A stretch of 57,464 bases of DNA from positions 1-57,464 of the forward strand of contig JAFGWA010000008.1 in NCBI GenBank assembly GCA_016937715.1, read 5' to 3'. A program made the translations under genes and the position numbers. The notes under the pieces are model-generated. The model ran no database searches. It was not told the DNA's origin and was given only the letters and a program-made list of their open reading frames with translations. Numbering within the stretch: position 1 is the first letter of the stretch; each line of letters begins with the position of its first letter. Shown one piece after another: positions 3,128 through 16,803 of this stretch. Source of the stretch: Candidatus Goldiibacteriota bacterium (GTDB lineage Bacteria; Oederibacteriota; PGYV01).

Positions 3128-3695
3128 TCCTGCCCCTTAAACATAATTTTCTTTTAAATAACTATATTAATATAATTTTAGCATAAAATTATGTGTCAGG
3201 AGAAGAATTATGAAGAACCGGAGGGACAGAGGGACGGATGCACGGAGGCACGGAAGTAAAAACAAAAATAAACAAACATTGAAAATTCAAAATTCGAAAA
3301 TTAGTTTAACACATACAGGGGTTGGGTGTGTTTTTTCAGTATGCGCCGCCTTAACATACTGCGTATGCGTCAGGGGCGATTTAATGCATCGCCGGCAAAT
3401 CCGTATGTGCCGCGGGCTTACGGCTGCCAACGAATAAACATACCTTTGATTTCAAGTTTGTTTGGATGCAAACACACCGGTTTGCGGCGCGTACTGAAAA
3501 GATATACCCAAGCCCTGTAAAACTGGATGCTTGGATGCTTAGAGGCTTGGACGGTTGGTAAAAATAATTATAAAAAGCAAATACAACTGCCACGAGCGCC
3601 GCAGGCCAAAGACGCGCGGCTGCCAGATCTAACCCGGACCACCGAACCTCCGATTTGCCAAGCATCAAAGCATCTAAGCATTCCAAGCATCTGCC
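3128..3695. repeat. 568-bp intergenic region filled with repeat modules, no gene
   Basis: No credible coding sequence is present. In order it holds an AT-rich stretch upstream of the peptidase gene (about 3140-3200), a GGGACGGA-type repeat (3221-3256), a foldback with 35-bp inverted arms (3315-3518), and a composite element (about 3523-3690). The composite element starts with GGATGCTTGGATGCTTAG-type units, has a degenerate GC-rich core near 3590-3640, and ends with inverse units such as CCAAGCATC. Short ORFs read through it have no recognisable protein features. Confidence 0.75.
3315..3518 (+). ncRNA. Candidate structured RNA or foldback element with 35-bp inverted arms
   Basis: The left arm 3315-3349 and right arm 3484-3518 are inverted repeats matching at 30 of 35 positions. 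Four of the five differences become G-U pairs if the plus strand is transcribed, so an RNA would pair at 34 of 35. Between the arms are further small hairpins: CATAC/GTATG (3354-3366), GGCGAT/ATCGCC (3375-3393), CCGTA/TACGG (3401-3423) and TGTTTG/CAAACA (3459-3474). It could be a structured non-coding RNA or a MITE-like foldback. No promoter or terminator was identified with confidence. Confidence 0.35.
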
Positions 3696-5036
3696 TTAAA
3701 TCTCTTTCGTTTTCCAATGCCCTTTTTTATAAAATATCCAGCCCACTATTCCCTGAAATATAAATACGGAAGCGATACTTATGAATATCGCTTTATGGCC
3801 AATGGCGGGGTTACGCGAGAGGAAAAACGCCAGCGGAATCTGCAGCGCGAAGAATGCCACAATATTTATTGACATCGGCGTCTTAGTGGAACCCGCGCCG
3901 TTAAACGCCGCGCCCGCAAGCAGGCCTACACCCATTAAAAGATAAAACGGAGAGACAATTCTTAGATACTGCACGCCATATTGTATGACCATATAATCGG
4001 GATTGAAAAACTTAATTATCATCGGCGCAAAATTATAAGCAATAAGCCAGCAGGTAAACGTAAATAAGCTGTACATTTTCAGCCCCGTTATAACGCTGTC
4101 TTCCGCCCGTTTAATCTGCCCGGCGCCCATATTATGCCCCACCATAACCGCCACAGACGAACCAATAGCCCATCCAAGCATCATTACAAAAACATCTATC
4201 CTGCTGCCTATTCCCATTGTGGCCAAAAGCGCGTCGCCGTGAGGCGCGGCAATTTTAAGCATTACCAGCGCCGCAATATTGGAAGCAACTCCCTGAAGCA
4301 TGGCCGGAAGTGATATCCCCACATAATTAAAAAGAAACTTTCTTTCCAGCCTTATATCCTTAATCTGAATCTTTAAGATGCCTTCCTTCTGCGTAAGAAT
4401 GTAAATCATAATAAAAGTGGTTACAAAATAGGAAATAAGCCTTGCCATGGGCACGCCTATTATCCCAAGCTGCGGAAAACCCGCCCACCCATAAATAAAG
4501 ACCGGCTCCAGTATTGTATTAAGCGCGATAGATACAAACAGCAGGTAAAAATGTTTTCTAATACCCCCCGCCGCCCTTAAGACGCCAAAAAAAACAAACA
4601 AACCGCTGTCATTTATCAGGGAAATAAGCGACATAAGGTATATAGACTTGGCAAGTTCGTACGTTTCCCCTTTGGCTCCAAAATACACCAGTATATTATC
4701 CATAAAGATAATATTTATCAGCGCAAAAAGTATGCCCATGGCATATCCCGCGAAGATAACATTAACAACCGCTTTTTTTAACCCCGCATAATCTTTTTTT
4801 CCCGCATAGCGGGAAATTACAGCGGAAGCGCCGGTCATAAGCCCGCCTTCCATTGACCAGAAAACCCCGAAGATAAATCCGGTAATGGAAATGGCTGCCT
4901 GCGCCGACACGCCTATCTTTCCAAGCAGAAACATGTCAAATATGGAGAAGAAATTCTGCATAAGGTTAGTAATAAGCAGCGGCACGCTTAAGTATAATAA
5001 GTTATGTAAAATACTTCCTTTTTCAAGTTCTCTCAT
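3696..5036 (-). CDS. MATE family efflux transporter (first of a tandem pair)
   Basis: 446 residues, the normal length for multidrug and toxic compound extrusion transporters. About 12 hydrophobic segments form two six-helix halves, each beginning with a family-like pattern (LLYLSVPLLITNLMQNFFSI near the start; YVGISLPAMLQGVASNIAAL near the middle). It should act in the cytoplasmic membrane as a Na+ or H+ coupled exporter of organic cations or other small molecules. A second MATE gene of similar length lies just upstream on the same strand, separated by a 149-bp repeat-rich gap, which suggests an old tandem duplication. The substrate cannot be inferred. Confidence 0.92.
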   Translation of the reverse strand: MRELEKGSILHNLLYLSVPLLITNLMQNFFSIFDMFLLGKIGVSAQAAISITGFIFGVFWSMEGGLMTGASAVISRYAGKKDYAGLKKAVVNVIFAGYAMGILFALINIIFMDNILVYFGAKGETYELAKSIYLMSLISLINDSGLFVFFGVLRAAGGIRKHFYLLFVSIALNTILEPVFIYGWAGFPQLGIIGVPMARLISYFVTTFIMIYILTQKEGILKIQIKDIRLERKFLFNYVGISLPAMLQGVASNIAALVMLKIAAPHGDALLATMGIGSRIDVFVMMLGWAIGSSVAVMVGHNMGAGQIKRAEDSVITGLKMYSLFTFTCWLIAYNFAPMIIKFFNPDYMVIQYGVQYLRIVSPFYLLMGVGLLAGAAFNGAGSTKTPMSINIVAFFALQIPLAFFLSRNPAIGHKAIFISIASVFIFQGIVGWIFYKKGHWKTKEI

Positions 5037-5060
5037 TTATGCTCCAAATATTTAAATAAC

Positions 5061-5186
5061 GAGGGACGGAGGGACGGATGCACGGATGTTCGGTAAAACC
5101 AACCTTGCGTCCTTCTGACCTTCCGTCCTTTTAACCTTCCGTCCCTCTGTCCCTCTGTGCATCCGTCCCTCTATTCTGCCGTCCTT
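5061..5186. repeat. GGGACGGA-type inverted repeat between the two MATE genes
   Basis: The left arm (5061-5088) is built from GAGGGACGGA and CACGGATG units. The right arm (about 5121-5186) carries the inverse units. GAGGGACGGATGCAC at 5069-5083 is perfectly inverted at 5157-5171. Related arms occur at 3221-3256, 18801-18828 and 19052-19090. The structure could form a long hairpin after the upstream MATE gene, but it lacks the T-run of a classical terminator. Confidence 0.7.
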
Positions 5187-6514
5187 CAAAACTCCCTATT
5201 CATCCAATTTTCCCTTTTATAATAGAACAAGTAAATAAAAGCAAAAAATATAAGAGACAGGCTCATCGCCCAGAATACTCCGTATTCTTTAAGGGCTGTC
5301 ATCGGAAGAATTAAAGCCATAACTATGCGCACCGGCCAGTAAACTATGAAACTTAAAACAAGTGAGAATCCAATCGCCCCCGCAGCGTTAAACGCGCTCT
5401 GCGCCATAAGCCCGGCGCCCATAAGAGGAAGAGCAAAAGCAATTGTTTTCATAAAATACCGCCCGTAATTTAAAGTCGCCGGGTCAGATGTAAACAGGCC
5501 AAGCACAAATTCAGGGAAGAAAAAATACACTAAAGCAGCCGGTATTGTAAAAACGGAAAAAACAGCCGCCGCGTCTTTCACAGCCCGCATTGCCCTGTCC
5601 TTATACCCGGCACCCAGGTTGTGCCCCACCACCACGCCGCCGGAATTGCCTATTGGCCACCCTATCATCATTACAAAATACCCTATCCTTAATACTATTC
5701 CGTACGCTGCTATAAACGCGTTACCGTATCCGGAGATAAGCTTAAGCATTAACATTGAACTGGCGTCAAAAACAAATCCCTGCAGTATCGCCTTGACTGA
5801 AAACTGCGCGTAAGTTTTAAACAGAATCCTGTCCGGCTTAAAATATTCCGCCTTAAGCTTAAAAAAGTGCCTGCCTTTTAAAAATATAAAGCCGTAAACA
5901 AGCGCCATTAAAGTATTTGTGCACAAAGCTGTAAGAGCCACGCCTTTTAAACCAAGGTTAAGTTTAAATATAAAAATAGGATTCAATATCACCCAAAACA
6001 CGGACATAAGGGCCACTACTTTTAAGGGTGTTATGGAATCACCCGCACCCCTTAAAACACCAAGAAAAACAGAGAACACAGCAAAGGGCAGAAAACTTAA
6101 TAACATTATGGATGTGTATTCTTTTGCCATCGTGAAAACTTCGCCTTTAGCGCCAAAAAACACAAGCATTGGATCCATAAAAATATACGCGGCCAGGCTG
6201 AATAAACCAAAAGCCAGAACAGCAAAAATAAGCATCTGCGCCACAGCACGGTTAAGTTCCGCGTGGTTTCCCCTTCCGGTATAACGCGACGTCATAGTAA
6301 TGGCCGCGTTAATAAGCCCGCCGTGCAGGGAAAGATACAACCCGTAAAAACTTGACATAACGATGGCAAAAGCCGCCAGCGCTTCCAGATTTATTATTCC
6401 TATAAGATACATTTCAAATCCCGCGGCAAGATTCTGCAGCACATTTGCCGTAATCATAGGCCAGGACAGATGTATTATATGTGATTTTAAATTGCCGGTA
6501 TGAAGTTCTCTCAT
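5186..6514 (-). CDS. MATE family efflux transporter (second of a tandem pair)
   Basis: 442 residues with about 12 membrane segments and the MATE two-half architecture. Its start (MRELHTGNLKSHIIHLSWPM) resembles that of its neighbour (MRELEKGSILHNLLYLSVPL), pointing to paralogy. The pattern LGVLRGAGDSITPLKVVAL near residue 150 is typical of the family. It is predicted to export small molecules across the inner membrane. The start codon lies only 7 bp after the stop of the endonuclease IV gene, so the two may be cotranscribed. No regulator is adjacent and the substrate is unknown. Confidence 0.92.
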   Translation of the reverse strand: MRELHTGNLKSHIIHLSWPMITANVLQNLAAGFEMYLIGIINLEALAAFAIVMSSFYGLYLSLHGGLINAAITMTSRYTGRGNHAELNRAVAQMLIFAVLAFGLFSLAAYIFMDPMLVFFGAKGEVFTMAKEYTSIMLLSFLPFAVFSVFLGVLRGAGDSITPLKVVALMSVFWVILNPIFIFKLNLGLKGVALTALCTNTLMALVYGFIFLKGRHFFKLKAEYFKPDRILFKTYAQFSVKAILQGFVFDASSMLMLKLISGYGNAFIAAYGIVLRIGYFVMMIGWPIGNSGGVVVGHNLGAGYKDRAMRAVKDAAAVFSVFTIPAALVYFFFPEFVLGLFTSDPATLNYGRYFMKTIAFALPLMGAGLMAQSAFNAAGAIGFSLVLSFIVYWPVRIVMALILPMTALKEYGVFWAMSLSLIFFAFIYLFYYKRENWMNREF

Positions 6515-6521
6515 TTTTTCC

Positions 6522-7361
6522 TTACTGCCCGCGCAGGCTTTTCATCAGTTTAATATTTTTTATATCCATGTCATCTTCATCCGGCGTTTCCATGATAACC
6601 GGTGTATCTTTAAACCTTTTGTCATTTATAAGTTTTCTAAAAAACTCAATTCCAATCTCGCCCTGCCCCAGATGCTGATGCCTGTCTTTTTTGGAACCAA
6701 GCTCCACCATTGAATCGTTGGCGTGAAAACACAGAAGTTTTTCAAACCCTATTATTGAATCAAATTTTTTAAGTGTTTTTTCATATTCATTTTTAAGGTC
6801 ATATCCCGCGCCAAACGCGTGCGCGGTGTCAAAACACACACCGGTTTTCTCTTTATCTTTAACTTTATCAAGTATATAGGCAACTTCTTCAAAACTGCCG
6901 CCGATGGTATTTCCCGTGCCTGCCGTTATTTCCAGTAATAATTTAGAGTTAAACTTTTTCATGCGCGACAGCGCCAGATTCATGCTTTGCGCCACCGTAT
7001 CAAGCCCCTGCTCTAATGTGCCGCCGCGGTAACTGCCCGGATGAAAGACAAGGCCGTCAAGTTTTAATGCCTGCACCCTTTCCATCTCTTCATAAAAAGC
7101 ATTTCTGGACTGTGACAGTTTTGCGCCGTCTGTGCTTGCAAGATTAATCAGGTACGAATCGTGGGCAACTGCTTTTTTCATTCCGCTGTTCTTAAAGTCT
7201 TCAATAAATCTTTTAACATCAGCCGCGGGCGGCGTCTTAACATCCCACGTCCTTTGATTGGCGGTAAATATCTGAATGGCTTCACAGCCCGTCCTTATGC
7301 CTTCTGACACGGCATTATATATTCCGCCTGCTATGGATACATGTACCCCTATTAATCCCAT
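6522..7361 (-). CDS. nfo: Endonuclease IV (AP endonuclease)
   Basis: 279 residues, full length for the family. It cleaves DNA 5' of abasic sites in base-excision repair, using a three-zinc site in a TIM barrel. The expected metal ligands are visible: His67 (AHDSY), His107 (FHPGS), Glu144 (LLEITAG), Asp178 and His181 (CFDTAHAF), His213 (CFHAND), Asp226 and His228 (KDRHQHLGQGEIG) and Glu258 (METPDEDD). It sits between dcd (24 bp upstream) and a MATE gene, so with dcd it may form a small DNA-maintenance operon. Confidence 0.96.
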   Translation of the reverse strand: MGLIGVHVSIAGGIYNAVSEGIRTGCEAIQIFTANQRTWDVKTPPAADVKRFIEDFKNSGMKKAVAHDSYLINLASTDGAKLSQSRNAFYEEMERVQALKLDGLVFHPGSYRGGTLEQGLDTVAQSMNLALSRMKKFNSKLLLEITAGTGNTIGGSFEEVAYILDKVKDKEKTGVCFDTAHAFGAGYDLKNEYEKTLKKFDSIIGFEKLLCFHANDSMVELGSKKDRHQHLGQGEIGIEFFRKLINDKRFKDTPVIMETPDEDDMDIKNIKLMKSLRGQ

Positions 7362-7384
7362 TTGTTCTGCACGCTGCCCGGTTT

Positions 7385-7942
7385 TTACTTTTTTATTTTG
7401 GCTATAGTAATCTTTTTCTGCGCCTGATACTTGCCTTTTTTGTCAGCGTAAGAAACCTCACACGGTTCTTCCGCTTTTAAAAACAGAACCTGCGCTATGC
7501 CTTCGTTAGCGTAAAGTTTCGCCGGTAACGGAGTAAGGTTTGAAATTGAAATGGTGACAAACCCTTCCCATTCAGGTTCAAAAGGAGTGATATTCATAAA
7601 GATGCCGCTTCTGGCGTATGTGGACTTGCCGAAAGTAATGGTCACAATATCACGCGGAATACGGAAATATTCCACGCTTTTTGCAAGCACATAAGAGTTA
7701 GGCGGAATGATACATTCTTTTCCCTTATAATCAATGAAGTGCGATATATCAAAGTTCTTGGGGTCAACTATCGTTTTGGAAGCGGGATTAAAAATTTTAA
7801 ACTCATCAGATATTCTCATATCATAACCGTACGAAGACACGCCGGAAGATATTACTCCCTTTGCCACCTGCTTTGCCTGAAATGGTTCTATCATCCCCTT
7901 TTTTGCCATCATCTTTATCCATTTATCATTCATTACGCCCAT
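7385..7942 (-). CDS. dcd: dCTP deaminase
   Basis: 185 residues, the typical length. It converts dCTP to dUTP on the route to dTTP; some homologues are bifunctional and also cut dUTP, which cannot be decided here. Family signatures are [17 protein letters not shown] near residue 32, [10 protein letters not shown] near 105 and [20 protein letters not shown] near 120. The start at 7942 follows AAAGGAGAC; an in-frame ATG three codons later is possible. It heads the group with nfo. The 169-bp upstream region also contains the promoter of the plus-strand dehydrogenase. Confidence 0.94.
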
Positions 7943-8045
7943 TGATGTCTCCTTTTAAAACTTTTTTAATTTTCGGCATTATATCATAATGCAAAACAAA
8001 ATCAATAAATCCTTTTAAACTCTTATTTTGAACGTTAAAATGAGT

Positions 8046-8074
8046 ATTGACATTAACTGTCAATGTATTAAAAT
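8046..8074 (+). promoter_or_regulatory. Promoter of the SDR gene with a palindrome over the -35 box
   Basis: TTGACA (8047-8052), a 16-bp spacer and TAAAAT (8069-8074) form a good sigma-70 promoter about 40 bp upstream of the start. The inverted repeat ATTGACA-N5-TGTCAAT (8046-8064) overlaps the -35 box, so a repressor site is plausible. The ribosome site CCGGAGGT lies at 8098-8105. Confidence 0.6.
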
Positions 8075-8111
8075 GGTCAGGTAAAATATCAAATTACCGG
8101 AGGTACTATAA

Positions 8112-8828
8112 ATGGACGTTAAAGGAAAAACAGCAATAATAACAGGCGCTAACCGCGGGCTTGGTTTTGCAATGTCAGAAAAACTTGCGTCAATGGGAGC
8201 GACAGTTATTATGGCGTGCAGGGATGCTAAAAAAGGAAAAGAAGCCGCGACAAAGCTGACGGCAAAAGGTTATAAAGCAATAGCTATGCAGGTAAAGGTG
8301 GATGACACCAATTCAATTAATAAATTCGCAAAAGAAGTCGCCAAAAAGTTCCCTGTGGTGGATATACTGATAAATAACGCGGGGGTAAATTCAGAACCCG
8401 GCGAAACAGGAATTGAAAACCTTAACCTTAAGATGTTCCAGAAGATAATGCAGATTAACCTGGTAGGGCCTGTATGGATATGCAAAAACATAGTGCCGTT
8501 AATGAAGAAATCTGATGACGCAAGGATTGTGAATTTTTCATCGGGCTTGGGCCAGCTTTCAGTTCCAAGAATGGGGCCATACCCGTCATACAGCATTTCA
8601 AAAACAGCCATAAACCAGCTGACAAAATTTTTAGCCGAGGAATTGAAGAACACCAAAGTTAAAGTGTTTTCCGTTGACCCGGGCTGGGTTAAGACAGATT
8701 TAGGCGGCCCGCAGGCCCCCCTTTCAATTGAAGAAGGAATTGTAACCCCCATATGGTTAGCCACCGCAGACACGAAAGACCTTGTAAGCGGAGAATTCTA
8801 TAAAGAAAAACAGATACTGGGCTGGTAA
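8112..8828 (+). CDS. Short-chain dehydrogenase/reductase (SDR), NAD(P)-dependent
   Basis: 238 residues, a normal classical SDR length. The N-terminal cofactor motif TGANRGLGFA (near residue 12), the NNAG motif in ILINNAGVNS (near 90), the catalytic Ser in NFSSGLG (near 143), and Tyr/Lys in YPSYSISKTA (near 158-165) are all present. It should catalyse NAD(P)H-dependent oxidoreduction of an alcohol or carbonyl; the substrate is not predictable. A carbonyl-reductase-like enzyme is likely, judging from the PGWVKTDLGGPQAPLSIEEG region. It is the only clear plus-strand gene, with its own promoter and a strong terminator. Confidence 0.93.
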   Translation: MDVKGKTAIITGANRGLGFAMSEKLASMGATVIMACRDAKKGKEAATKLTAKGYKAIAMQVKVDDTNSINKFAKEVAKKFPVVDILINNAGVNSEPGETGIENLNLKMFQKIMQINLVGPVWICKNIVPLMKKSDDARIVNFSSGLGQLSVPRMGPYPSYSISKTAINQLTKFLAEELKNTKVKVFSVDPGWVKTDLGGPQAPLSIEEGIVTPIWLATADTKDLVSGEFYKEKQILGW

Positions 8829-8842
8829 TAATAATATAAATC

Positions 8843-8879
8843 AAAAGGCGGCGATTACTCGCCGCCTTTTTTTATTTAT
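8843..8879. terminator. Rho-independent terminator, left copy of a paired hairpin
   Basis: The stem GGCGGCGA/TCGCCGCC (8847-8866) with loop TTAC is followed by seven T residues on the plus strand and preceded by four A residues. It sits 15 bp after the SDR stop and touches the minus-strand EpsI-like stop (8872-8874), so it can serve both converging units. It matches 13240-13276 in inverted orientation at 36 of 37 positions. Confidence 0.9.
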
Positions 8880-9384
8880 CCACTCTTTCAGCTACCGTAA
8901 TTACCCACCAAGGAGAAATAGTCTTTTTCATTAAAACCGCCCAATACCACGCAGAAACATCACTATAGCTTGTATTAATCCCATAAATTCTTTCCCTGAC
9001 TAAAAAAACACTATCTTTTTTAGAAGCCTTAAAAACACCCCATATATTTCCATCTTTATCCTTATATAAAGGCATTGGTTTAACTTTATAACCCGAGCCA
9101 ACAAAACATTCTGAAGAAGGGTGAAGTTTTCTAGTTTGATTATATACCCACCTTATTATAATTTTTCGTCTACCATCAGTAAAACGATTGCTCTTCCCCG
9201 GGAAATCAGTATAGTACTTAACTTCTCTATCATCCATATGTTCAGTTATGAGTTTTACACCTTCAAATTCAAATGGCCAACCCGGAAAATCGGGTATATT
9301 ACTATTTGTTTTTACACTGTAAAAATTCACAAATGGAATTATCGCAGCCATAAAACATAAAATAAAATAAATAATAATTCTCAT
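8872..9384 (-). CDS. EpsI-like exosortase-associated protein
   Basis: 170 residues. One N-terminal hydrophobic segment (residues 3-22) would anchor or export it, and the rest is extracytoplasmic. The segment RKLHPSSECFVGSGYKV (near residue 83-99) matches the His-Pro...Cys...Gly pattern of EpsI-type proteins that accompany exosortases. Its role in those systems is unclear; involvement in surface polysaccharide export or protein sorting is proposed. Its start overlaps the exosortase stop by 4 bp, so the two are translationally coupled. Base composition is AT-rich like the rest of the cassette. Confidence 0.75.
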   Translation of the reverse strand: MRIIIYFILCFMAAIIPFVNFYSVKTNSNIPDFPGWPFEFEGVKLITEHMDDREVKYYTDFPGKSNRFTDGRRKIIIRWVYNQTRKLHPSSECFVGSGYKVKPMPLYKDKDGNIWGVFKASKKDSVFLVRERIYGINTSYSDVSAWYWAVLMKKTISPWWVITVAERVDK

Positions 9385-10175
9385 AATTTTTTATCCATAT
9401 AATAAGCTGTAAGAGTAATGACTGCAGTTAAGGAAATAAAAATAGCCGCGCCAACAGCCGCATGAAACCATTCCGGCATAACAAATATGCCTGACTCAGT
9501 GAAAAAAAGCAATGTCGACCTAATTATATTTCCTGCAATCACAAAAATAAATGCATAAATGGATAAAATCAAAGTCTTTTTATTTGTAAAACGGAAAAAA
9601 CCAGTTAGGATAAATGAGAGGAGAATACCCGTCCATAACATTTTTATGCCACTGCACGGAGCATCAACACATACAAATCTATTTCCATATTCAATCATAG
9701 TCCCTTCCAGTTCCACTCTATATCCAGACATTCTTATAAGCAAAAACGAGATATTTGTCGCTAATAATCTCAAAGGATAACCAAAATAAAAATCAATAGT
9801 AGGAATAACAGGCAGCGACAAAAAAAACAAACCCAATAATGTAAAATTAATTTTAATTTTAAAATATACTTCACTTAAAAGAAAAGCAATGATAGAAAAT
9901 GCCAGAAACGCCCTTACAAGTTCAGGTATATAATGAAAAAGAATTATATAAACGGACATTAATAAAATAAATAGATTATATTTCTTCAGTTCAATAATAC
10001 AGGCAATTTTCTTATCACGAACAATAAAAAAAATTATAGCAATTAAAGGTATTACAGATACATATTCAAAAGTTGAATACAATATTCTTCTCACATACCA
10101 TATCCACACAGGCCAAAAAACCACAATCGTGGCAATTACGGTCAATTTCCCTTTAATTAATGATAGTTTTTGCAT
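9381..10175 (-). CDS. Exosortase/archaeosortase family transpeptidase
   Basis: 264 residues from the chosen start, an integral membrane protein with about eight hydrophobic segments. The three catalytic signatures are present: Cys174 in DAPCSGIKM, Arg219 in GNIIRSTLLF and His238 in EWFHAAVGAA. Exosortases cleave C-terminal PEP-CTERM-type signals and are thought to transfer the protein to a surface acceptor. An upstream in-frame ATG at 10241 would add 22 polar residues and overlap the upstream gene by 85 bp. The start at 10175 leaves only 19 bp of overlap and begins just before the first membrane segment. The immediately upstream gene encodes the only PEP-CTERM-like protein seen. The exosortase subfamily could not be named. 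Confidence 0.88.
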   Translation of the reverse strand: MQKLSLIKGKLTVIATIVVFWPVWIWYVRRILYSTFEYVSVIPLIAIIFFIVRDKKIACIIELKKYNLFILLMSVYIILFHYIPELVRAFLAFSIIAFLLSEVYFKIKINFTLLGLFFLSLPVIPTIDFYFGYPLRLLATNISFLLIRMSGYRVELEGTMIEYGNRFVCVDAPCSGIKMLWTGILLSFILTGFFRFTNKKTLILSIYAFIFVIAGNIIRSTLLFFTESGIFVMPEWFHAAVGAAIFISLTAVITLTAYYMDKKL

Positions 10176-12772
10176 TCTGTTTTCTTGCCCAACAATACCA
10201 GTATCAACACTGCAACCATAGCGATTATTATCATTATCCATTCTTCAGGTTCGGGAACAGAAGGAACTTTCCCAACAGATTCGCCGGAATTCTTATCCAA
10301 CCCAAATTGCTCATATTGATTTTGATTTTCAAGAACAACAGCTCCACTTATGTGAGTTATTAATTTATATTTACCCGCAAATTCCAGGGCATCACTTCCG
10401 CCAAAGAGCACTTTATCATAAGCCCATAATCTTGCAAGATGATCCGAAGTCTGTTTACCTTCACTTGGTCGAGTATTTACCCATTCTCTTACATATTTTT
10501 TAACGCCAAGCTTTCCCTCCCAAATTAAAAAAAGCGATCTCAAATCCTCATACACATCACCTTTTGTATATACATTTTCCACCATGTTATTTGATTCAAA
10601 ACTTTCGCTTATCCTGTTCCTTTTTCCATTTACAGCCAAATCATATAGTTTTACTTTTCCCGGGCGCCTTTTCCATTTTTGCTCCAAAAAAATTGTCGGG
10701 CTCATAATCATCGGTTGCCCTCCGTGTATCCATAATATGGCCGAATTACTTTTTGACCCGGCAAGATCCCATGCCTTTTCAAGCGCGGGTATATTATCAA
10801 CACCACCTTTAAACGATTTAGAGGAAATCTTTTCCAAATCAACAATAGAAATATTCTTGTCCGCAATAACATAGACAATATCTTTAACTTGCAGGGTAGA
10901 AAAAGCTTTTTTAGTTAAATCGATATATGCTTTCATATCTTTTGATCCATCTATGACCACTATCAATTTTTCAGGAATTATATTCTTCTCTTCTACAATT
11001 TCCTGAGTAACATAAAATTTAGATCCATAAACATCTTTTGACCACACTCTGTTAACGTCCATGTTTCTGCTGACACGCAATAAACTTTTCCCTTCAAAGA
11101 GTTCTGTATCTTTTATTATCCCTCTCAGGGCATATAGCTTATCATCAGGATTTTCGGGCTTCAAATTTAGATTCTCTGAATTTATACTGTTTTTAGACTC
11201 ATACCAAACCGAATGCCTTACATTATTATGTATATAAAAATTCGAATCTGAAATATAAGGCAATTCAAGCAATGCCTCAGTTCCCTTTCCTTCTATCCTC
11301 ATCGGACTTGTAAAACCTATACGCACTTTCATTTTTCCGCCGTTCTCAGCAATAGGATAGCATTGAAGCATAACTCTGTCTCTGCCTTTCGATGTTAAAA
11401 GAGATGGATCTCTTCTTTTCCTGACAGTACTCTGATACGCCTCAACAACTTTACTTTTTTTGGCAAAAACAGCTTCCTGCTCCTCGCCATTCACCCAAAG
11501 CGTCATTCTTGTGGCAACACTTCCGTGCGGTAAAGCTATTAGAGCGCGGGCTTCCTGCTGTATTTTGGTCTTATTCTCAAATTCAAAAAACCACTCAGAA
11601 TATGCAATTCCTGAATCCGAATCAATAGTTCCATCAATCGTAGAACTTATAAGATTAATGCCGTTTATTTTCCCCCCCACATCAACATTACCCGCCTCAT
11701 CATCAAAATCACCAAAAGGAGGCAGCATAACACCTGGAAAAACACCTTCATTTAATACATCTTTGCGTGAGTATACATTAAAACTTTCTCCGTATACTCT
11801 ATAATATACTGTCCGTGCATCCTCCGGATTTACAAATTCCGCTTCTCTATCCGGGGACATAAACGAACTAAACCAAGATAGAGGGTTTACAAATGATAAT
11901 CGTCTTTGATCATAACAATTCATAAGTATATACTTTTTATTTCCAAAACTTCTTAACATTTCAACCGCTTTATTGCTTGCCACGCTATCAGTAGATAGGG
12001 CTTTTCTAATACCAAGATCAGTAACAAAATACTGTAAATTGATAAGTATCATAAAAATAGCAACTGCAATTATACCCGTCCAGGCAATACTTTTTTCTTT
12101 ATTATTGTAGTCAAATGTACTTCTAAGTTTCACAGAAAGAATTATCGAAACAACAATAGCAGCAACTGGGAAAAATGGGTAGATTCCAAGTCCGTAGAAA
12201 AATATTCCAAATAAAGCTATTACAGAAAAGCCTGAAATAATTATCACGGGAAAGAGCGTAATTATGAACATGAGCGATGCCCCTATAGCACATCCAATAA
12301 TAACACTTGCGATCTTATAATTGTTTTTATTACAGCTTTTTATTGTATTTAAAACAAAAAGATTGCCTAAAGGTATTATACAAACCACAAAAATATGCCA
12401 TATAGTCGGTATGGGATCAAAAAAAACTACTGTACAAGGCCTAAAAAGCAGCTCAACAAGAATAGCGATAACAGGAAATATTACTCCCAGAATAATTATC
12501 GCAGTAGTTGAAAACATTCCAATTCTTTTAGCTTTTCCCCTTATTTTCTCTTTATGTGCTTTTTTCTTTATATTGAAACCAATTTCTTTAATAACTTCCT
12601 GCACTTCCGTATCACCAATTACTCTTAACTTCTTTCTTAAAAGCGTTTCAACAATATGCCCATGAAGGTCTTCAGAGACGTCTTTTGGATTTGCCTCTGC
12701 TGGGTCTACTGACTTTTTAACATCTGATAAGTAATTTTTCAGTATTGTTTTTGCATCCCTCGTCCATTTCAT
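10157..12772 (-). CDS. Multi-pass HAAS-VIT-vWA-like protein with C-terminal PEP-CTERM-type sorting signal
   Basis: 871 residues. Residues 1-75 are soluble and resemble the HAAS-type domain that typically accompanies PadR regulators (SEDLHGHIVETLLRKKL, VQEVIKEIGF). Several membrane segments follow between about 84 and 250. Residues about 375-490 look like a VIT domain (ALIALPHGSVATRMTLWVNG...AYQSTVRKRRDPSLL). A von Willebrand A-like region has a degenerate MIDAS (VVIDGSKDM near 610). The C-terminus is VPEPEEW (839-845), a 16-residue hydrophobic stretch, then basic GKKTECKNYH, the tripartite exosortase signal. It lies 3 bp after padR and overlaps the exosortase gene. It resembles PEP-CTERM-associated integral membrane proteins with VIT domains; its function is unknown. 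It is probably the dedicated exosortase substrate. Confidence 0.75.
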   Translation of the reverse strand: MKWTRDAKTILKNYLSDVKKSVDPAEANPKDVSEDLHGHIVETLLRKKLRVIGDTEVQEVIKEIGFNIKKKAHKEKIRGKAKRIGMFSTTAIIILGVIFPVIAILVELLFRPCTVVFFDPIPTIWHIFVVCIIPLGNLFVLNTIKSCNKNNYKIASVIIGCAIGASLMFIITLFPVIIISGFSVIALFGIFFYGLGIYPFFPVAAIVVSIILSVKLRSTFDYNNKEKSIAWTGIIAVAIFMILINLQYFVTDLGIRKALSTDSVASNKAVEMLRSFGNKKYILMNCYDQRRLSFVNPLSWFSSFMSPDREAEFVNPEDARTVYYRVYGESFNVYSRKDVLNEGVFPGVMLPPFGDFDDEAGNVDVGGKINGINLISSTIDGTIDSDSGIAYSEWFFEFENKTKIQQEARALIALPHGSVATRMTLWVNGEEQEAVFAKKSKVVEAYQSTVRKRRDPSLLTSKGRDRVMLQCYPIAENGGKMKVRIGFTSPMRIEGKGTEALLELPYISDSNFYIHNNVRHSVWYESKNSINSENLNLKPENPDDKLYALRGIIKDTELFEGKSLLRVSRNMDVNRVWSKDVYGSKFYVTQEIVEEKNIIPEKLIVVIDGSKDMKAYIDLTKKAFSTLQVKDIVYVIADKNISIVDLEKISSKSFKGGVDNIPALEKAWDLAGSKSNSAILWIHGGQPMIMSPTIFLEQKWKRRPGKVKLYDLAVNGKRNRISESFESNNMVENVYTKGDVYEDLRSLFLIWEGKLGVKKYVREWVNTRPSEGKQTSDHLARLWAYDKVLFGGSDALEFAGKYKLITHISGAVVLENQNQYEQFGLDKNSGESVGKVPSVPEPEEWIMIIIAMVAVLILVLLGKKTECKNYH

Positions 12773-12775
12773 AAT

Positions 12776-13114
12776 TTACCCCTTTTCTCTTCTTAGTTTT
12801 TTCATTTTCATTACTAGTGATTCCAAATAGCCATTCATGACTTTTGTAGCTTCTATACCTTCCTTAGTTAATGAATAATACTTTCTAACAGGACCTTCAT
12901 TCGATTCAACAAGGCGAGTCTTGACAAGCCCTTGTTTTTTCAGCCTTGAAAGCAATGGATAAATAGTGCCGCTTTTAATATCAAAATCAGGAATCGTTTC
13001 CAGTGTTTTCGCAATATCATAACCATACATCTCTTTTACTTCTAAAATATTAAGCACAGAAAGTTCAGCTATGCCTTTTTTTACCTGTATTAGCCACTTA
13101 TCAATCGAATCCAT
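12776..13114 (-). CDS. PadR family transcriptional regulator
   Basis: 112 residues. A winged-helix core is visible in VLNILEVKEMYGYDIAKTLE and KSGTIYPLLSRLKKQGLVKT (TIYPLLSRLEKxG is the PadR signature), followed by the GPVRKYYSLTKEG wing and a C-terminal helix for dimerisation. It probably represses its own operon. It is the first gene of the exosortase cassette, and the next gene begins with a HAAS-like domain. PadR/HAAS pairs are known as membrane-linked regulatory modules. A strong ribosome site, GGAGGAGA, precedes the ATG. Confidence 0.93.
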   Translation of the reverse strand: MDSIDKWLIQVKKGIAELSVLNILEVKEMYGYDIAKTLETIPDFDIKSGTIYPLLSRLKKQGLVKTRLVESNEGPVRKYYSLTKEGIEATKVMNGYLESLVMKMKKLRREKG

Positions 13115-13129
13115 TTCTCCTCCATCTAT

Positions 13130-13174
13130 ATCGCTTTACACGGTATAGTACATTACAATATAGCGATTTGTCAA
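13130..13174 (-). promoter_or_regulatory. Promoter and candidate operator of the PadR-exosortase operon
   Basis: On the minus strand TTGACA (13169-13174), an 18-bp spacer and TACTAT (13145-13150) form a sigma-70-like promoter. The inverted repeat ATCGCT (13130-13135) / AGCGAT (13162-13167) brackets the -10 region and is a candidate PadR operator. Autoregulation is inference. Confidence 0.5.
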
Positions 13175-13239
13175 TAATTATTTACATAAGAAATATTATT
13201 TCGAATTTTAATCAATACATGAACTACTACTGATCCCAA

Positions 13240-13276
13240 ATAAATAAAAAAAGACGGCGAGTAATCGCCGCCTTTT
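13240..13276. terminator. Rho-independent terminator, right copy of the paired hairpin
   Basis: The stem GACGGCGA/TCGCCGCC (13253-13272, one mismatch) has loop GTAA and A/T tracts on both sides. On the minus strand it directly follows the stop of the 108-residue gene and has a seven-T tail, so it ends that transcript before the PadR promoter. It is inverted relative to the copy at 8843-8879. Confidence 0.88.
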
Positions 13277-13277
13277 T

Positions 13278-13604
13278 TTATTCCTCTACAATACTGAATT
13301 TCCCGTCATGCTCTTTAATAGAAAGTTCGGCTAAATATATGTATCCATCGGATGCTGATTCAAAGCTGAAACTGTAATCAAATTTATCTCTTTTATACCG
13401 GAAAAAGTTCTTTTTATCCCCTACTTTTAACTGAACAATAGTAATTCCATGCCTTTTGTAATCAGGATAAGGCCTCGACATTCTACATAGATAGTTATGT
13501 ACCTCGGATAATATATTATCCGGACCATGAATATCGAATTTTCTGACAGTCTCCATCTGATTTAAAAACATCTGCCTGAATTTCATAGGATGCAAAGGGG
13601 TCAT
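13278..13604 (-). CDS. Uncharacterised small protein, second gene of an antitoxin-led pair
   Basis: 108 residues, not recognised as a known family. It is rich in aromatic and charged residues, with a beta-rich second half (ITIVQLKVGDKKNFFRYKR, FDYSFSFESASDGYIYLAEL) and no signal peptide or membrane segment. The ATG at 13604 is preceded by AAGG that overlaps the stop codon of the upstream ribbon-helix-helix-like gene, so translation is probably coupled. Position and size suit a toxin or toxin-like partner, but no catalytic motif is visible. A strong terminator follows. Confidence 0.6.
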   Translation of the reverse strand: MTPLHPMKFRQMFLNQMETVRKFDIHGPDNILSEVHNYLCRMSRPYPDYKRHGITIVQLKVGDKKNFFRYKRDKFDYSFSFESASDGYIYLAELSIKEHDGKFSIVEE

Positions 13605-13613
13605 TAAATACCT

Positions 13614-13916
13614 TTATACCTTGCCCTTCCGTTGTTTACCATTTGCAAAAAATTTATCCTTCAGACCGTACTTTTCGGCAGCTTCCATAAAACTCAGGGC
13701 GGTTTCTTTCTCTTTCTGATGCCTGTAATAGTCAAGTACCGCATCTTCTTCCCTGACTCTTTTTACCGCGCTTTCAATAGCATCCGCTATAAAACGGTTC
13801 ATTTTTAACCCTTTTTCTTCGCAAATACTACGGACATTTATATTAATACTATGCGGTATTTTTATTGATACAACATCCTGCTTTTCCGTACCTGAAAGAC
13901 GCTCCTTCACAGCCAT
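13614..13916 (-). CDS. Ribbon-helix-helix-like small DNA-binding protein (antitoxin-like)
   Basis: 100 residues. The segment DVVSIKIPHSININVRSIC, then EEKGLKMNRFIADAIESAVK, fits a beta strand followed by two helices as in ribbon-helix-helix repressors. The rest is charged and helical (a possible toxin-binding tail). ATG at 13916 was chosen because AGGAGG ends eight bases upstream; the GTG at 13925 lies inside that ribosome site. A promoter is visible upstream. It forms a two-gene unit with the 108-residue protein. It could be an antitoxin or a plain regulator. Confidence 0.6.
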   Translation of the reverse strand: MAVKERLSGTEKQDVVSIKIPHSININVRSICEEKGLKMNRFIADAIESAVKRVREEDAVLDYYRHQKEKETALSFMEAAEKYGLKDKFFANGKQRKGKV

Positions 13917-13948
13917 ATCACACACCTCCTGTTTTATTCTTCAATTAG

Positions 13949-13977
13949 AATATACACATGAAAACTATAAAAAGCAA
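13949..13977 (-). promoter_or_regulatory. Putative promoter of the antitoxin-like operon
   Basis: On the minus strand, TTGCTT (13972-13977), a 17-bp spacer and TATATT (13949-13954) lie about 33 bp before the start at 13916. The hexamers are near consensus, but in AT-rich DNA such matches occur by chance. Confidence 0.4.
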
Positions 13978-14224
13978 GTAAAAGTAGTAAATAGTAATAT
14001 TTATTATGGATATTACAGCGTTTCTGCATTTCAAGGAAATTTACTCAAGGGATTAATCTTAATAACAGGGAACGGTTGAGGTATATTAGAAAAAATGGTT
14101 AACACATATAATTTTAATGCGTCCCTGACAATTCGTCACGCAGTGCGTGACGTTTCGCAATACGCTGTTTCTTCTATAAAAAATATTATCTGCTAAATTT
14201 TATATATAACCGGTTCTATCCGGT
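13978..14224. other. AT-rich intergenic region with one perfect hairpin
   Basis: No gene is seen. The only structure noted is CGTCACGC/GCGTGACG at 14134-14152 with a three-base loop. It has no T-run on either side and so is not a convincing terminator. It may be another dispersed palindrome, although only this copy was seen. Confidence 0.5.
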
Positions 14225-16629: not shown

Positions 16630-16803
16630 ATGCCGATGCTTTGACGCTTAGATGGTTGGATGTTTAGTAAAACCAACCAAACCGCCGTTCTCCGCTTCTG
16701 CTTAACTGCCTAAAGCTTAATTTGCTATTTTTTTGAATCAACAACCGCGGGCTAAAGACCCGCGTCTACTAAACCTTCCAAGCATCCAAGCGTCCAAGCC
16801 TCA
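16630..16803. repeat. Composite intergenic repeat element with inverted short-unit ends
   Basis: The left side (16632-16662) has GATGCTTTGACGCTTAG-type units. The core contains the perfect hairpin CGCGGG-CTAAAGA-CCCGCG (16746-16764). The right side (16776-16801) has the inverse units CCAAGCATCCAAGCGTCC. The arrangement recurs with variations near 3523-3690, 22990-23090 and 54190-54290. Confidence 0.7.

Follow-up and report, generated by a model that had tools for sequence, protein, structure and literature searches.

A probably laterally acquired exosortase cassette with a single VIT/PEP-CTERM substrate and a co-encoded PadR regulator

The window, as we call the whole stretch of 57,464 nucleotides of Candidatus Goldiibacteriota DNA analysed here, contains a compact cassette between positions 8843 and 13276. 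As the initial annotation had described, it consists of four genes, all on the minus strand. They encode a PadR-family regulator of 112 residues (12776–13114; Pfam PF03551, 74 bits, above the Pfam cut-off), an 871-residue VIT/PEP-CTERM substrate (10157–12772) with a HAAS-like domain, about five transmembrane (TM) helices, a VIT/vWA-like ectodomain and a PEP-CTERM tail, an exosortase (9381–10175) and an EpsI-like protein of 170 residues (8872–9384). The junctions are as tight as had been reported, with a gap of 3 bp between padR and the substrate gene, an overlap of 19 bp between the substrate and exosortase genes, and one of 4 bp between the exosortase and EpsI-like genes. The length of several relatives favours the shorter exosortase product of 264 residues, which most likely starts at the ATG at 10175; the first ATG, at 10241, would extend the overlap with the substrate gene to 85 bp.

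Two near-identical hairpins (37 nt, 97% identity, inverted relative to each other) delimit the cassette on the left (8843–8879) and right (13240–13276), and their outer edges fall exactly on positions 8843 and 13276. The left hairpin is the bidirectional terminator of an SDR gene and is common to both congeners. The hairpins were also considered as a genome-wide repeat; this was rejected, with no further copy in the 310 kb of the genome that were sampled. Next to the right hairpin lie two small, AT-rich minus-strand genes without a Pfam match (13278–13925), the second of which is partly conserved in a congener.

The identification of the exosortase was borne out by a PF09721 match of 86 bits (cut-off 25.7) and by the Cys/Arg/His triad, present as C174, R219 and H238. 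The EpsI-like protein has one N-terminal TM helix and an HPSSECF motif. It matched no Pfam family; among NCBIfam models, its sole match is to exosortase T, in the C-terminal EpsI portion.

The substrate begins with a HAAS-like three-helix domain (residues 1–70, positions 12563–12772; helices 5–21, 29–46 and 54–64 or beyond), followed by a Lys/Arg-rich stretch and a TM bundle (residues 83–258, 11999–12526). Its five predicted TM helices (86–110, 124–146, 149–179, 198–220 and 229–258) fit both the AF2 model (pLDDT 80, pTM 0.72) and the hydropathy profile. Unlike in usual PEP-CTERM proteins, an N-terminal signal peptide is lacking, and the soluble HAAS-like domain and the TM bundle occupy its place. 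The ectodomain comprises a VIT domain (PF08487, residues 386–485, 11318–11617; 35 bits, cut-off 26.5) and a vWA-like fold (residues 600–765, 10478–10975), with DGS at the MIDAS site instead of DxSxS. A PDB search with the substrate sequence returned no match. The best fold match of the model was inter-alpha-inhibitor heavy chain 1 (PDB 6fpy; E=3.6e-18, 11% identity over 582 columns), a human extracellular protein that shares the VIT and vWA architecture and whose processing is unrelated. The C-terminus of this heavy chain is esterified to a glycosaminoglycan, which is at most an analogy for the substrate.

At its C-terminus, the substrate carries the tail SVPEPEEW...TM...GKKTECK (residues 838–871, 10160–10261; P840-E841-P842). 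The succession of VPEPEEW, a TM helix (842–870) and GKK matches the PEP-CTERM layout and is conserved in the family. PF07589 and TIGR02595 do not reach this tail; TIGR02595 exceeds its cut-off in two relatives (L009 and L012). Because the Lys/Arg-rich stretch precedes the first TM helix, the topology suggests a cytoplasmic N-terminus; the VIT/vWA part would then lie outside and the basic tail inside. With a polytopic N-terminus and no signal peptide, cleavage at the PEP motif would therefore not free the substrate from the membrane.

According to the initial annotation, the only PEP-CTERM-like protein is the one in the operon. The genome (2.59 Mb, 96% complete) contains a single exosortase, as found by a PF09721 search. 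A genome search with PF07589 is uninformative on its own, given that it did not list the known tail of the cassette itself. A profile built from 16 PEP-CTERM tails recovered the substrate's tail at E=8e-13 and no second tail below E=1 in this genome; the next matches, with E above 1, cover only the hydrophobic part and lack the PEP motif. The genome was thus found to hold neither many other PEP-CTERM proteins nor a second exosortase. This supports a one-to-one pairing of enzyme and target at the sensitivity of the profile, though not in an absolute sense, and the exosortase probably processes the surface protein encoded beside it.

The cassette stands out from its surroundings. Its GC content is 34.2%, compared with 42.2% for the window, and PF09721 matched in none of the 44 other genomes of the phylum, the two congeners included. 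The left flank, with genes for a MATE-like transporter, an endonuclease IV-like protein, a dCTP deaminase and the SDR protein, is collinear in the congeners (93% and 85% identity). Similarity to the congeners breaks off at the left hairpin (window positions 8877 and 8879) and returns at a LOG-family gene near 14220; the stretch between the two holds different cargo in the congeners. In one congener (G001), a stretch 74% identical to window positions 13601–13727 begins 10 bp past the end of the left-flank match; this congener site therefore has neither the cassette nor the right hairpin nor the small gene at 13278–13604. Since an AT-rich block lies between near-identical hairpins and is missing in two congeners that keep the flanks, the cassette was probably acquired laterally, and a discrete insertion into a variable interval is the simplest reading. 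This interval, between the SDR and LOG-family genes, spans 8880–14222 in the window, 5279–7701 in congener locus L123 and 3888–4916 in L124. Outside the interval, L124 carries a 48-bp tandem repeat of 6.6 copies (5913–6218), of which one or two related copies occur at window positions 16692–16777.

The cargo of this interval raises the question of whether it is a defence-like or competition hotspot between two housekeeping genes, in which the VIT protein would act in competition and not in envelope upkeep. In congener G002, the same interval holds a YhcG/DUF1016 nuclease (PADLOC PDC-S02); in G001, it encodes a DUF4062 protein that also has a RecG C-terminal-like domain. PADLOC, however, gave no defence match for the exosortase, the substrate or the EpsI-like protein, and we dropped the reading of the cassette as a defence system; padR matched merely parts of Cas-associated regulators. 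Relatives of the cassette, moreover, occur in ordinary chromosomal settings and together with CreBCD genes. We therefore regard a role as hotspot cargo for competition as very improbable.

Relatives were sought by scanning 84,980 species genomes for two degenerate motifs; the query was a hand-built alignment around the window proteins that exposes the likely conserved motifs. The scan yielded 16 loci, all of them confirmed in tblastn comparisons with the real sequence. The hosts belong to Verrucomicrobia, Kiritimatiellales, Pyrinomonadaceae, Desulfococcaceae, Sedimentisphaerales, Melainabacteria/Obscuribacterales and other bacteria. Most substrate relatives have 38–54% identity across the VIT region, and L005 entered the set by way of its exosortase. 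By profile search, 26 of 388 Verrucomicrobiota genomes and 3 of 396 Acidobacteriota genomes proved to encode a member of the substrate family. No relatives turned up when viral contigs were scanned with single proteins or when plasmids were searched by tblastn.

The association of the four genes is conserved outside the phylum. The exact order padR-substrate-exosortase-EpsI recurs in L006, and L084 has it with an additional PadR/HAAS pair and a fused exosortase-EpsI gene, in the order PadR, HAAS protein, PadR, substrate, exosortase-EpsI. Substrate and exosortase, with or without EpsI, occur without PadR in L005, L079, L080, L066, L069, L070, L125, L126 and L127. Most of the Verrucomicrobiota loci have the substrate with padR and no linked exosortase. 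Fusion of the EpsI-like protein to the exosortase was seen in L005, L077/L084, L125 and L126; the last two (Melainabacteria/Obscuribacterales; 3193–6153 and 7184–10573) have tails with VPES instead of PEP and come from genomes with a single exosortase each. The initial reading of a regulated cassette with one exosortase and one substrate is thus supported on both points on which it could have failed, the number of PEP-CTERM proteins in the genome and the recurrence of the gene set elsewhere.

The regulator itself needs a more specific description. Across the relatives, padR lies directly upstream of the substrate gene in 21 loci, always as a stand-alone gene. The view of PadR as the cassette's own regulator holds in that padR adjoins the substrate gene; the association, however, is with the substrate and not with the exosortase, because most loci with PadR and substrate have no linked exosortase. 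Substrates next to padR have an N-terminal extension of about 80 residues ahead of the TM bundle, with the pattern W-T-x2-A...D-E-V-x2-D-L-R-x-H-I-E-E...V-V-T-x3-V...I-G. This HAAS-like domain, resembling the known partner of PadR regulators and not noted in the initial annotation, is present in all 21 substrates with an adjacent padR. Among 18 substrates with readable upstream sequence and no padR, 14 lack the domain; the four that have it are L059, where no PadR was found, and three CreBCD-type loci. On a quick substrate tree, the padR label changes about eight times, with at least three changes forced by well-supported branches. The co-occurrence of padR and the HAAS-like domain is therefore not one inherited event.

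Several comparisons indicate that the N-terminus of the substrate is likely, though not proven, to be homologous to HAAS, hence our term HAAS-like. The domain is predicted to fold into three consecutive helices (pLDDT 81), matching the published description of HAAS (PMC11237479). Searched against 3532 ORFs, a 26-row profile of the N-terminus found a single non-substrate match below E=1, a PF22564-positive HAAS protein (E=1.6e-5) that adjoins the L084 cassette. A comparison with a canonical HAAS protein in hhalign gave a probability of 88%, and of 13% with only seven rows. The Pfam HAAS model (PF22564) misses the cassette substrate, both whole and as the isolated N-terminus, and gives only 12.9 bits for L019 (cut-off 27). 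With the predicted domain, no Foldseek match reached significance (the best had E=0.28), and the known HAAS-related structure 2O3L was absent among the 50 matches listed. In L084, the region 4260–10000 holds, next to the cassette, a pair of PadR genes along with a HAAS protein encoded on its own that exceeds the PF22564 cut-off.

A promoter ahead of the operon had also been proposed. A sigma-70-like site with TTGACA at −35, an 18-nt spacer and TACTAT at −10 lies on the minus strand at 13174–13145 and is among the best matches in the region, although this shows no general enrichment of promoter-like sites. Adjacent to the −10 element is a candidate PadR operator, TACCGTGTAAAGCGATATA (13127–13145, minus strand). 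Its model is the dyad TACCTTG-N5-CAAGGTA, which occurs upstream of padR with at most two mismatches in 12 of the 21 loci (0.0008 per locus in shuffled sequences); it replaced an ACAA-N-TTGT dyad that was found in only three of the 21. The candidate in the window is weak, with four mismatches to the dyad and rank six in 57 kb.

The genes of L081–L083 are arranged as CreD, substrate, exosortase, EpsI, CreB, CreC, the place of EpsI being taken from the matching loci L066, L069 and L070. In L081, CreD and CreB exceed the curated cut-offs, as does CreC in L083. Three of the four HAAS-like substrates without PadR have CreD, CreB and CreC in the same cluster. This Verrucomicrobia clade carries CreBCD instead of PadR.

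HAAS-PadR operons are described as autorepressed and tied to envelope stress in two papers (PMC11237479; PMC6624303), one of which proposes them as an alternative to two-component systems in the envelope stress response (PMC11237479) and the other of which covers autorepression for the Listeria relatives LstR and LltR (PMC6624303). CreD maintains envelope integrity (PMC4689548). The cassette may thus have a role in sensing the envelope, for which these HAAS-PadR, Listeria and CreD precedents give the main, contextual support.

The same genes could also form a dedicated enzyme–substrate pair under an ordinary autorepressor, in which PadR senses a small molecule, the N-terminal domain only tethers or titrates PadR and the substrate is a surface anchor rather than a sensor. 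Small ligands are known to act on classical PadR proteins such as LmrR and PadR, and signal flow through the substrate is not demonstrated by sequence data. Against this stand the pairing of HAAS-like domain and padR in 21 of 21 loci, the joint gains or losses of the two over the substrate tree, and the presence of CreBCD signalling genes instead of PadR in another clade. On balance, a small-molecule autorepressor appears rather unlikely to us.

The exosortase subfamily tree proposed in the initial annotation was built from 23 sequences, comprising linked exosortases and general ones from the same genomes. It separates the linked enzymes as a clade of their own on a 100/100 branch. Three exosortases for which no linkage had been known (L034, L035 and L043) grouped with the linked ones, and their surroundings then showed a substrate gene directly ahead of each. 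Each of the 16 genomes of the first scan encodes one exosortase or more, in most cases a general type at another site; six of these 16 genomes have a member of the subfamily, in each case adjoining a substrate. An alignment of 12 linked exosortases has the triad C174/R219/H238 invariant, and D-A-P-C-x-G, W181, N216, R219 and H238 are common to all; the signature of the dedicated exosortase is [VI]DAPC[SA]G-x-x-(M)-x-W. Tree and gene neighbourhood together delineate an XrtQ/N/T-like subfamily, phylogenetically apart from the general exosortases and always found beside a VIT substrate.

How far this subfamily coincides with catalogued systems was assessed with curated models. The closest NCBIfam model for the enzyme is exosortase Q (NF012182), with a full-length match of 138 bits, half of the cut-off of 270; L006 and L005 reach 131 and 176 bits. 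In contrast to exosortase Q, the linked clade is defined by a fused or adjacent EpsI and by the VIT substrate. The XrtN system (TIGR04476 and TIGR04477) resembles the cassette in pairing a specialised exosortase with a VIT protein thought to be sorted by it. Here the enzyme scores 52 bits for TIGR04476 (cut-off 200) and the substrate 122 bits for TIGR04477 (cut-off 250), its closest NCBIfam model, and the cassette differs in having the HAAS-like domain, PadR and a separate EpsI gene. Substrate relatives match the MSEP-CTERM/XrtK system (TIGR04286 and TIGR04287) over the TM region and the VIT domain, with 78 bits for L006 and 27 bits for the cassette, both under the TIGR04286 cut-off of 150; the cassette has a PEP rather than an MSEP tail. 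To our knowledge, the XrtN and XrtK dedicated systems come without PadR.

These likenesses would fit a merely divergent member of a catalogued dedicated system (XrtQ, or XrtN and its VIT protein) next to which PadR lies by chance. TIGR04477 and XrtQ are indeed the best models for substrate and enzyme, and each of the 12 linked exosortases has matches to XrtQ, XrtN and XrtT. The inspected scores are, however, well below the curated cut-offs (250, 270 and 200): the exosortases of the window, L005, L006 and L084 stay under every one in NCBIfam except that of the general signature TIGR04178. A chance neighbourhood of PadR is contradicted by its recurrence in 21 loci in several phyla. We consider such a membership improbable.

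The closest functional parallel is the proteobacterial dedicated sortase system (TIGR03784, 03785, 03787 and 03788), in which one enzyme serves a single VIT/vWA target bearing a sorting tail at its C-terminus (PMC3237569) and for which NCBIfam models are named after its histidine kinase and response regulator. That system is of the LPXTG/sortase type, whereas the cassette combines PEP-CTERM with an exosortase and links PadR through a domain of the substrate itself. HAAS-PadR dyads resemble the cassette in placing padR directly before a gene for a membrane protein that starts with a three-helix domain, and in having a promoter dyad. The available text names fusions of HAAS to PspC, Toastrack, FtsX, FtsW and similar partners and mentions none to an exosortase substrate (PMC11237479; PMC6624303). 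A literature search for exosortase together with PadR gave only an unrelated co-mention. The concept of one enzyme with one VIT substrate is already known from TIGR04476/TIGR04477 and from the proteobacterial dedicated sortase; what is new is a distinct exosortase clade spread over several phyla, a substrate that bears the partner domain of its regulator, and the replacement of PadR by CreBCD.

Our preferred interpretation, which we hold to be more likely than not, is that the cassette reached the genome laterally as a self-contained exosortase system whose one substrate also feeds a signal to the co-encoded PadR repressor. The anatomy of the cassette is read directly from the DNA, and from it we infer the following signalling. 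PadR would repress the operon from the dyad at its promoter. The exosortase would cleave at the PEP motif and hand the C-terminus of the ectodomain to an acceptor in the envelope or outside the cell, while the N-terminal TM bundle would remain in the inner membrane. Envelope state, or the success of processing, could then pass through the HAAS-like domain to PadR, and this relay may tune the amounts of substrate and exosortase made. A bolder version has the substrate report its own sorting: cleavage would couple the membrane-embedded HAAS sensor to a polymer of the envelope or outside the cell, its processing or tension would set PadR repression of the entire cassette, and the single operon would be a transferable envelope sensor-tether, an alternative to CreBCD-type signalling. 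We put this version forward tentatively, as possible but doubtful.

With a minimal set of enzyme, substrate and own regulator, the preferred system would be the simplest place to seek the acceptor of an exosortase, and the HAAS-like domain would supply a built-in transcriptional readout of processing. The exchange of PadR for CreBCD in one clade connects the sorting system with envelope-integrity signalling, and so compact a cassette could be transferred whole for study. In an acidobacterial locus (L085, 10213–11653), genes for an ECF sigma factor and a zinc-finger, anti-sigma-like protein lie directly downstream of the substrate-exosortase-EpsI set.
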